Positions 42,884-45,579 of a stretch of 64,000 nt of DNA are shown one piece after another. The translations under genes and the position numbers were made by a program. Origin of the DNA: Bradyrhizobium sp. 1(2017) (lineage in GTDB: Bacteria; Pseudomonadota; Alphaproteobacteria; Rhizobiales; Xanthobacteraceae); the NCBI RefSeq assembly GCF_011602485.2, contig NZ_CP050022.2, positions 6,902,001 through 6,966,000 on the forward strand. The letters are read 5' to 3'. The notes beneath the pieces were generated by a model that saw only the letters and a program-made list of their open reading frames with translations, ran no database searches and was not told the origin of the DNA. Numbering within the stretch: position 1 is the stretch's first letter; each line of letters begins with the position of its first letter.

Positions 42884-43987
42884 ATGGATAGGGTCGACTG
42901 CGTCGTCATCGGAGCCGGCGTGGTCGGGCTCGCGGTGGCTCGAAAGCTCGCGCAGGCCGGGCGCGAGGTCATCGTGCTCGAGGAAGCCGAGGCCATCGGC
43001 ACCATCACCTCCTCGCGCAACAGCGAGGTGATCCATGCCGGCATCTACTACCGCGCCGGCAGCTGGATGGCGCGCATGTGCGTCGACGGCAAGCACGCGC
43101 TCTATCGCTACTGCATCGAGCGCGGCATCCCGCACAAGAATTGCGGCAAGCTCATCGTCGCGACCAGCGCGAAGGAGACCGAGAAGCTGCAATCGATCAA
43201 GGCGCATGCCGAGGCCAACGGTGTGCTCGACATGCGGCTGCTTCCGGGCGAGGCCGCACGCGCGCTGGAGCCGGCGCTTGCCTGCGATGCCGCGCTGCTG
43301 TCGCCGTCGACCGGGATCATCGACAGCCACGCCTACATGCTTTCGCTGCGCGGCGAAGCCGAAGAGGCAGGCGCGGCGTTCGCTTTCCACACGCCGCTGG
43401 TGCGCGCCAAGGCGGAAGCCGGGATTATCGAGATCGAGGCTGGCGGCGAGGCGCCGATGACGCTGCAATGCAGCCTCCTCGTCAACGCCGCGGGGCTCGC
43501 GGCAACGCATCTGGCGCGCAACATCGAGGGCATGCCGCTGGATCGCATTCCGCCGGCCTATCTCGCCAAGGGAAACTATTTCAGCTGCAATGCCAGGGCG
43601 CCGTTCTCGCGCCTGATCTATCCGGTGCCGGAGCCCGGCGGGCTGGGGGTGCATCTGACGCTGGACATGGCAGGGCAGGCCCGCTTCGGCCCCGACGTCG
43701 AGTGGATCGAGACGATCGATTACGAGGTCGATCCATCACGCGCCGAGCGCTTCTACCCGGCGATCCGCAAATACTGGCCGACGCTGCCTGACGGCGCGTT
43801 GATGCCGAGCTATTCGGGCATCCGTCCGAAGATCGTGCCGCCGGCAGTGGCCACGCAGGATTTTCTGATGCAGGGCCCGCGCGATCATGGCGTTGCAGGC
43901 TTGATCAATTTGTTCGGTATCGAATCGCCGGGACTGACGTCGTCGCTCGCGATCGCCGATCACGTCGCCGAGCTCGCAAAGGTTTGA
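42884..43987 (+). CDS. FAD-dependent oxidoreductase, L-2-hydroxyglutarate oxidase-like
   Basis: A 367-residue DAO-family flavoprotein. The FAD loop is [17 protein letters not shown] near the N-terminus. [47 protein letters not shown] and the C-terminal [15 protein letters not shown] match the LhgO/L2HGDH branch, so oxidation of L-2-hydroxyglutarate or a related 2-hydroxyacid is likely. It is a lone gene: the c-di-GMP gene diverges upstream and a repeat follows. No strong ribosome site is visible. Confidence 0.85.
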
Positions 43988-44159: not shown

Positions 44160-44342
44160 CTAGTGGAGCGTGTCGCCAGAGTGCTTCAGACGCTCGATCT
44201 GGTCCTTGACCATCAACTTTCGGCGCTTCAACTCAACAATTTGCAGGTCGTCTGTTGAAAGGTGCACGAGAGCTTCGTGCAATTCGTTTTCGAGAAGTTT
44301 GTGCTTCCGTTCCAATTCAACAAGATGTGCCTGAATTGTCAT
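44160..44342 (-). CDS. YdcH-family (DUF465) small coiled-coil protein
   Basis: A 60-residue, highly charged, all-helical protein: LVELERKHKLLENELHEAL then DLQIVELKRRKLMVKDQIERL, the hallmark DUF465 layout of two helices with a KRRKL core. A very strong ribosome site, AGGAGG, lies 7 bases before the ATG. The family has no known function. A second family member is divergently encoded at 44671. The 126 bases between its stop and the repeat at 43989-44033 hold no clear signal. Confidence 0.85.
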   Translation of the reverse strand: MTIQAHLVELERKHKLLENELHEALVHLSTDDLQIVELKRRKLMVKDQIERLKHSGDTLH

Positions 44343-44670
44343 TCGAAACCTCCTCGGTAGGGCTGAACCTCAGGATTCGATCCGGACGGCGAAGTCTACA
44401 TCACCGATTCGTTCTGTCGATGGGTATCCGTCATTGCAGCTTCATTTTTGAAAATTCATATGTAACGAAGCGTGAGTACGGAACCGCTCGGGAAAAATCC
44501 ATGATATCAATGCGCTTGCGGAGCGCCGCGGCGACCCGCAGAAATATGTTGCGGGAGACCGGCGGACGAGAACCGCAGATCGCTTGCGGTCACGCCGCAC
44601 AAGGACGATAATTTCCACAGGGCATCCACAGCCCAGATCTCACGCCTACCGGTTTTCGGCCACCGCAGAC
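44343..44670. other. Non-coding gap between two divergent YdcH-family genes
   Basis: This 328-base stretch holds no credible gene. An AT-rich part around 44425-44510 is the likely divergent promoter zone. Two ATCCACA/TTCCACA-like words near 44610-44630 resemble DnaA boxes weakly but are isolated. No repeat or terminator is seen. Confidence 0.6.
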
Positions 44671-44877
44671 ATGACCAATGAAGACGAGCGTGAGCTCGAA
44701 ACGGAGCTCACCCGGTTGCAGCAGGAACACCGAGATCTCGATGCGGCGATCGATGCACTGCATCAATCGCCAGCCCCCGACCTATTGCGGTTACAGCGGC
44801 TGAAGAAGCGCAAGCTGTTGTTGCGCGATCGCATCGCGTTCATCGAAGACCAGATCACGCCCGACATCATTGCCTGA
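44671..44877 (+). CDS. YdcH-family (DUF465) small coiled-coil protein
   Basis: A 68-residue charged helical protein: ERELETELTRLQQEHRDLD, a short linker with APDLLRLQRLKKRKLLLRD (the conserved KKRKL element), and a C-terminal FIEDQITPDIIA. I take the ATG at 44671; a longer frame upstream is Arg-rich and unlikely. The ribosome site is weak. It diverges from the other YdcH gene at 44160; the two may be an old duplication. Function unknown. Confidence 0.8.
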   Translation: MTNEDERELETELTRLQQEHRDLDAAIDALHQSPAPDLLRLQRLKKRKLLLRDRIAFIEDQITPDIIA

Positions 44878-44916: not shown

Positions 44917-44943
44917 TTGACTCGAAAAGAACAAAATAGGAAC
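44917..44943 (+). promoter_or_regulatory. LexA-type (SOS) box overlapping a -35-like element
   Basis: GAACAAAATAGGAAC (44929-44943) is an exact GAAC-N7-GAAC direct repeat, the alphaproteobacterial LexA operator. A TTGACT -35-like hexamer lies at 44917-44922, so LexA binding would cover the promoter. The start of the next gene is 84 bases downstream. Confidence 0.7.
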
Positions 44944-45026
44944 ATTCGTGACATCCCGGCGCCCAGAAAAACGCCAGCGGAAGCGCCAACGGGCAACCAC
45001 CGATACAAGCCAGAAGGACAACGCAG

Positions 45027-45245
45027 ATGTCAGCCACCGCCCTTCTCGACAACAGCCATTATGAACAAGCCTGCGATCAGGCTATCGCGATGTGCGACGG
45101 CAATCTGCGCAGCACCATCAAGGCGCTGATCATGGCCAACGAATATCTGGAAGCCGAACTGGAGGAGTTGCAGGCGGCGATATCGGCCGGCTGCATTCCG
45201 GAGACCTCGCACAGCAAGATGCGGAGCAAGAGCAGCGCCGCCTGA
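45027..45245 (+). CDS. Small protein of unknown function behind a LexA-type box
   Basis: A 72-residue acidic helical protein: YEQACDQAIAMCDGNLRSTIKAL then ANEYLEAELEELQAAISAG (each cited in part), with three cysteines and a basic Ser/Lys tail. AAGGA lies 8 bases before the ATG. I do not recognise a named family; the layout recalls small conserved rhizobial proteins. An exact GAAC-N7-GAAC box upstream suggests DNA-damage control. Another small gene follows after 82 bases containing a palindrome. Confidence 0.75.
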   Translation: MSATALLDNSHYEQACDQAIAMCDGNLRSTIKALIMANEYLEAELEELQAAISAGCIPETSHSKMRSKSSAA

Positions 45246-45284
45246 GCTCTCAAACGCAAATCGCGCTGAGGTTGCCGTTTGACC

Positions 45285-45306
45285 ATGATCCGGAAAGCCG
45301 GATCAT
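45285..45306. repeat. Short palindrome related to the 28679 repeat
   Basis: ATGATCCGG-AAAG-CCGGATCAT, a perfect 9-bp stem with a 4-base loop, shares the GATCCGGAAA core with the repeat at 28679-28727. It lies between two small genes and may separate their expression. Confidence 0.65.
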
Positions 45307-45327: not shown

Positions 45328-45579
45328 ATGTCCGATGTGACCTATTACGTTGCAATGCCTTTTCTGATCGATGCAGATGGCTCGCCTGTCGCGGGCACCG
45401 CCGAGGAGTGCCAGAGCTCGACGGCCGCGTTGCGGCGCGCCGAGATCTTGTCGCGCGGCGCGGGCAACATCGGCGCGGTGGCGTTCAGCCGCAGCGGCGA
45501 TCCCATGACTGGCGAGTTCGGCGACGCCACGCTGCTGCGCAAATTCGGCAACGTGCCGGACGATCTCGCCACGCTGTAG
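45328..45579 (+). CDS. Small conserved-type hypothetical protein
   Basis: An 83-residue soluble protein: VTYYVAMPFLIDADGSPVAG, STAALRRAEILSRGAGNIGAVAFSRSG (cited in part) and a C-terminal LLRKFGNVPDD. No signal, membrane segment or known motif. GGAG lies 8 bases before the ATG. Base composition and codon use look native. It is convergent with the diguanylate cyclase gene, two bases apart. Function not recognised. Confidence 0.75.
   Translation: MSDVTYYVAMPFLIDADGSPVAGTAEECQSSTAALRRAEILSRGAGNIGAVAFSRSGDPMTGEFGDATLLRKFGNVPDDLATL

Follow-up and report, generated by a model that had tools for sequence, protein, structure and literature searches.

The LexA operators of alphaproteobacteria occur in two orientations, GTTCN7GTTC and GAACN7GAAC, according to PMC3091678, and GTTCN7GTTC is given as the Caulobacter operator in PMC9578287 and PMC12700426. 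SOS regulons beyond a few models contain small genes without a name. Among the closest known systems are the small damage-induced division inhibitors of Caulobacter, SidA, which belongs to the SOS response, and DidA, which is SOS-independent (PMC13384398). Here we describe a locus of Bradyrhizobium sp. 1(2017) in which an exact GAACN7GAAC repeat, very probably a LexA operator, precedes two small genes that code for a 72-residue protein and an 83-residue protein (p83). The locus lies in a stretch of 64,000 nucleotides (NZ_CP050022.2, positions 6,902,001 to 6,966,000 of the forward strand), called the window below. The operator itself is a further case of the already known LexA operator type. 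Among its best-ranked matches, our literature search retrieved no recognised description of a Bradyrhizobium LexA regulon or of either protein, and earlier regulon tables may name some of the genes.

The box, by which an exact match to the pattern GAACN7GAAC is meant throughout, was located by pattern search of the window as GAACAAAATAGGAAC at 44929-44943 on the forward strand, where it forms a direct GAAC-N7-GAAC repeat, and a TTGACT hexamer begins 12 bp ahead of its first base. Both the repeat and the −35-like hexamer had been pointed out in an earlier annotation made from the letters of the window, hereafter the sequence-only reading. For comparison, orthologous loci were taken from the genome relatives that tblastn confirmed, the best 80 of 186; they come from Bradyrhizobium or its kin, by record title mostly from Bradyrhizobium, with one labelled Frankia and a few alphaproteobacterial bins, and together with the window they make up 81 sequences. 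The elements of the proposed transcription unit are the following:

44917..44922, + strand, −35-like hexamer TTGACT (same distance from the box in 81/81 sequences, window included)
44929..44943, + strand, probable LexA operator (SOS box) GAACAAAATAGGAAC (exact repeat in 80/80 orthologous loci)
44940..44945, + strand, inferred −10 position GAACAT, 17 bp past TTGACT, with the second half-site over it (spacing read from the sequence)
45027..45245, + strand, gene of the 72-residue protein, acidic and probably a helical hairpin, at the head of the probable operon (substitution rates and structural model)
45237..45242, + strand, codons of the terminal Ala-Ala, a possible ClpXP-type degron (-AA in 78/81 sequences)
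45328..45579, + strand, gene of the 83-residue alpha/beta protein p83, second gene of the probable operon (downstream in 80/80 loci)

In the orthologous loci the box was found 46-112 bp ahead of the matched start, and when the sequences were aligned on it, the eight half-site bases and the six bases of TTGACT proved to be invariant in 81/81. The core between the half-sites started with AAA in 81/81 sequences, and the dinucleotide AT followed the box in 78/81. The distal flanks drifted, as the majority base accounted for 49% on average in columns 22-45 ahead of the box (range 32-77%) and for 53% in the distal columns after it (range 36-79%). The invariance of half-sites and hexamer against such flanks indicates that selection has kept a promoter-like stretch, in which the repeat lies over the spacer and the −10 position. 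Conservation of the box upstream of the orthologues had been proposed as a check in the sequence-only reading, and this result, along with the constant TTGACT spacing, backs its interpretation of the repeat as a LexA/SOS operator.

The same motif stands ahead of lexA and recA in the genus. Among 31 Bradyrhizobium genomes searched, 30 loci were available per gene, and GAACN7GAAC was present upstream of lexA in 30/30 and upstream of recA in 30/30. The core of the lexA box was GAACACATATCGAAC in 15 loci, GAACATGTATCGAAC in 13, and GAACACATATGGAAC in two, while the recA box had the core GAACATATTGCGAAC in all 30. The box of the 72-residue gene is like the alphaproteobacterial LexA operators in its exact half-sites and their spacing, in its fixed place by a −35-like hexamer, and in sharing the motif of lexA and recA, but unlike them in the constant AAA- start of its core, from which the lexA and recA cores (e.g., GAACACATATCGAAC and GAACATATTGCGAAC) differ. 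The sole LexA match of the genome contains the DNA-binding domain PF01726 and the S24 peptidase domain PF00717, both over the cut-off. The A-rich core pattern GAACAWAHNNNGAAC matched 17 sites of the genome versus one site for the reversed control; because it was picked after the sites had been seen, these counts are a description and not a test. A-rich boxes of this genome also lie ahead of recA (TIGR02012), of an SSB gene (PF00436), and of a radical SAM gene of the PA0069 type (NF033668). A further one precedes an ImuA-like gene that a polymerase-IV-like open reading frame (ORF) overlaps; the matches of these two are below the cut-off, and the ImuA-like name is weak because the ImuA model gives RecA about the same score. 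At four A-rich sites (L013, L015, L016, and L017), small ORFs of 45-106 codons start just behind the box, with a TTGACT-like hexamer close ahead, and the similar products of L013 and L015 both carry MDNRINEIRR near the start. The stretches scanned, two of them shortened, gave no Pfam match over the cut-off; the ORFs may be further unnamed SOS genes.

As judged from sequence comparisons, the 72-residue protein is a member of a wider unnamed family of Hyphomicrobiales whose genes are repeatedly found behind LexA-type boxes. Built from members of the genus, a first profile (A1, some rows of which do not begin at the true start codon) detected the family in 21/297 Hyphomicrobiales genomes. A second profile, which included distant members (A2), detected it in 67/397 Hyphomicrobiales genomes, in 57/119 genomes of the GTDB family of the strain, and in 3/385 genomes across the class, two of the latter being Bradyrhizobium and the third a weak match. 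These searches, like the genome searches for p83 described below, scored only candidates from a loose first look, so absences are weak. Removal of 18 duplicates from 83 loci left 65 non-redundant family loci (L107-L135 and L138-L192 without L139), 12 of which are orthologues of the focal gene. In a range that began 350 bp upstream and ended 60 bp inside the domain, an exact box in either orientation was found in 43/65 loci. Three permutations, each in both orientations, served as six control motifs and matched 0-1 of 65. When the 12 focal orthologues were left aside, the box was still present in 31/53 loci. Box and gene thus occur together in the 80 orthologues and in these 31 other loci, and 22 of the 65 have no exact box. 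A rough family tree, with few columns and many open forks, was labelled with boxes at most 250 bp away (42/66 rows including the window, L168 and L192 being dropped from the 43), and the label changed 8 times on it versus 19.8 times when the labels were shuffled.

The sequence-only reading regarded the 72-residue gene as the only one that the box could serve and overlooked p83, which follows on the same strand in 80/80 loci. The gap between the two genes is at most 60 bp in 64/80 loci, with a median of 22 bp, and amounts to 82 bp in the window, where it contains a hairpin. Since p83 is the next gene in every orthologous locus, usually after about 22 bp, the pair probably constitutes a two-gene SOS operon, and a joint transcript would be expected to run over both genes. 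The AlphaFold2 (AF2) model of p83 had a mean predicted local distance difference test score (pLDDT) of 89 and a predicted template modelling score (pTM) of 0.74, with long strands at residues 4-14, 47-58, and 63-74 and one helix at 31-42. It gave no significant structural match, the fold of the phage antitoxin Dmd being one candidate, and the p83 family members scanned had no Pfam or NCBIfam match over the cut-off.

The p83 family was detected in 80/397 Hyphomicrobiales genomes, and the 30 best of the loci found there were inspected with 1.5 kb on each side. A box lay within 400 bp in 28/30 of them, and it accompanied p83 in three arrangements. In 15/30 loci p83 stands behind a 72-residue family gene, with a box in 14/15; in the fifteenth (L255) the box is 411 bp away. 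In three loci the two genes are divergent with one box between them (3/3; L269, L270, and L276, the family match of L276 being weak). Where p83 has no 72-residue family gene within 1.5 kb on either side, the box was found in 11/12 loci. One of these, L263, belongs to another genus of the same family; its p83, with a box 52 bp ahead, sits between the end of a gene like that at 42884-43987 and purE, as in Bradyrhizobium, so the 72-residue gene may have come or gone while the switch stayed in place. The family is also carried by plasmids: 18 plasmid records matched p83, and in the four that were read an exact box stood upstream of p83 (4/4). The conjugative plasmid of L293 shows box, family ORF, and p83 in this order and has the only normal-looking family ORF of the four; on the plasmid of L295 the order is the same, with a family ORF that is short at its amino end. 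The conjugative Bradyrhizobium plasmid NZ_CP088101.1 (L292) retains unannotated remains of a 72-residue family gene over two frames, and next to its p83 gene, on the opposite strand, is a Ku gene. The Methylocystis plasmid of L294, whose locus gave no match to the 72-residue family, has a box identical to that of the window. By the conserved promoter and the three gene arrangements, two families that lack a Pfam or NCBIfam model are tied to LexA-type boxes.

A number of observations weigh against LexA control or limit its reach. The bare pattern is at chance level, with two matches in the window versus 1.63 expected, and 67 + 83 = 150 matches in the genome versus 70 + 91 = 161 for the reversed pattern (the source chromosome measures 7.86-Mb). 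The other exact match of the window, GAACTGATGAGGAAC at 963-977, does not have the A-rich core and is regarded as a chance match. That the box at 44929-44943 is likewise a meaningless match, of which one or two are expected per such window, has a negligible probability in our judgement: conservation in 80/80 orthologous loci already refutes it, and at the density of the pattern in the genome only about 0.5 of the 65 family loci would have a box within 410 bp, against the 43 found. Several of the 17 GAACAWAHNNNGAAC sites fall within ORFs or are not accompanied by an evident SOS gene. The 80 orthologous loci are all close relatives and hence not independent of each other, and the nine columns directly ahead of TTGACT are also well kept (majority base 65-98%), which means that the whole promoter is conserved and not the box alone. 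In the wider family, the 22/65 loci without an exact box include a boxless clade of 12 rows (Shimodaira-Hasegawa-like approximate likelihood ratio test, SH-aLRT, 90), to which the second 72-residue copy of this genome itself belongs. Relatives of p83 outside Hyphomicrobiales (6/322 genomes) had no box at their loci, nor had L287 within the order, and the second p83 copy of the genome at C1:6797587-6797778 (L290), shortened and perhaps a decaying paralogue, has none nearby. The inferred −10 position was not called by a consensus promoter scan because GAACAT is poor as a −10 hexamer; such a hexamer would suit an operator that also serves as the −10 element. At 45279-45306, between the two genes, the same scan did call a promoter-like site, and in this strain p83 could thus be uncoupled in part.

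These points leave some room, though little, for the repeat being the operator of another regulator or a mere part of a strong promoter, and we consider either improbable. Conservation by itself does not name the binding protein, but the occurrence of a direct repeat with the same spacing ahead of lexA and recA, in every one of the 30 loci of each, argues for LexA over another regulator. That the box sits on a promoter conserved as a whole would suit a promoter part; on the other hand, four family loci (L117, L180, L187, and L191) have the opposite orientation, GTTCN7GTTC, which suits an operator better. Control of the promoter at 44929-44943 by LexA remains the reading that we hold to be highly probable.

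From the arrangement of the locus, we infer LexA binding and induction by DNA damage as follows. LexA bound at 44929-44943 would block the promoter composed of the −35 hexamer TTGACT and the −10 position overlapped by the second half-site. Upon DNA damage, RecA would trigger the self-cleavage of LexA, as in the established SOS pathway, and the promoter would be freed. RNA polymerase could then transcribe the genes of the helical 72-residue protein and of the alpha/beta protein p83. Both products might be small soluble effectors working through protein-protein contacts in the damage response, perhaps by pausing division or replication or by assisting repair, and the 72-residue protein might later be cleared through its Ala-Ala end; both of these last steps are proposed with low confidence.

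The 72-residue protein has an isoelectric point of 4.7 and cysteines at positions 16, 23, and 56, and no Pfam or NCBIfam match over the cut-off was obtained for it or for the family members scanned, in agreement with the acidic three-cysteine protein of no named family that the sequence-only reading described. The three cysteines are kept in 80/80 loci, and the pooled ratio of nonsynonymous to synonymous substitution rates (dN/dS) was 0.067 for a 46-codon core in the 81 sequences. The helical nature claimed for it found support in the AF2 model, which predicts helices at residues 9-22 and 26-53, albeit at middling confidence (mean pLDDT 72, pTM 0.41; 10-residue blocks above pLDDT 90 in the second helix only). 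The family core consists of a helix, a conserved C-x-G-D/N turn, and a long helix. The model gave no significant fold match, and hydropathy analysis revealed no membrane segment, the highest 19-residue Kyte-Doolittle mean being 0.91. The tail ahead of the terminal -AA varies in length and sequence, and the same end was found in 100/107 close database relatives among those listed. A C-terminal Ala-Ala follows the degron rule of ClpXP, and its conservation suggests that it may serve here as a ClpXP degron. Clades of the family end in distinct short motifs (-AA, -DWYD, -YSG, and -LH) after variable linkers (L106-L135 and database relatives), as if each clade had an end signal of its own. The second family copy of the genome, at C1:1428531-1428698 (L134), a member of the boxless clade, ends in -LH.

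As to function, the pair may act as a damage checkpoint effector, holding back division or replication until repair has taken place, with a role like that of Caulobacter SidA or DidA, or its products may assist a repair or translesion complex as accessory factors; we regard both roles, at low confidence, as about level, and each as only a tentative proposal. LexA-type control, the tiny size, the constrained core, and a terminal -AA suited to fast removal speak for the checkpoint role, and products that are very small and would be made chiefly after DNA damage would fit the possible logic of SidA and DidA. SidA is an inner-membrane protein, unlike the 72-residue protein with its lack of a membrane segment; we know of no sequence relation of the pair to SidA or DidA. 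An accessory role in repair would accord with the presence of recA and ssb among the genes behind the A-rich boxes of this genome, with the plasmid copy beside the Ku gene (L292), and with a p83 gene (L281) near an ORF that resembles SRAP/YedK. The Ku and SRAP/YedK-like neighbours are single cases, however, no repair domain was found in the pair, and on this chromosome DUF465, GGDEF, and purE genes surround it. That the SOS response controls a pair of toxin-antitoxin-like kind, or an accessory of a mobile element, seems clearly less likely than either. One could imagine, with some doubt, a two-protein DNA-damage module of Hyphomicrobiales, carried by chromosomes and plasmids and tied to the box in operon, divergent, or p83-alone form, in which the hairpin protein, with its clade-specific carboxy ends, and p83 would together carry out a checkpoint or repair step that differs from those known in E. 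coli or Caulobacter, with proteolysis as the off-switch. The switch is met again ahead of related genes in kindred bacteria, within an order to which the crop symbionts Bradyrhizobium belong. If LexA control is true, both tiny proteins are an unexplored part of the damage response, and the label "hypothetical protein" then becomes the direct question of what use is made of both proteins after DNA damage.

Two neighbouring genes lie outside the unit:

44671..44877, + strand, DUF465 (YdcH-type) gene, conserved neighbour (PF04325, E 7.9e-15; the start at 44671 is the reading of this analysis, the domain scan having begun at 44584)
44160..44342, − strand, second DUF465 gene, conserved neighbour (PF04325, E 2e-10)

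The sequence-only reading had placed two YdcH-type proteins next to the 72-residue gene. Both do belong to DUF465, and in 79-80 of the 80 loci tblastn found the gene accompanied by DUF465 (−), DUF465 (+), p83, GGDEF (−), and purE, the two DUF465 proteins being matched in 79 and 80 of them. The link did not hold farther away, as tblastn with both proteins gave no match in the 53 other family loci within about 1.5 kb on each side. The DUF465 genes look like incidental neighbours with no link beyond close relatives. Like the 72-residue protein next door, their products are small, but unlike them it gave no match to PF04325 at E up to 1.

The gap between the two genes of the probable operon contains one further element:

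45285..45306, + strand, 9-bp hairpin ATGATCCGG-AAAG-CCGGATCAT

A perfect stem of at least 7 bp within 130 bp past the stop codon of the 72-residue gene was present in 11/81 sequences, and the hairpin of the window may be a small repeat element.
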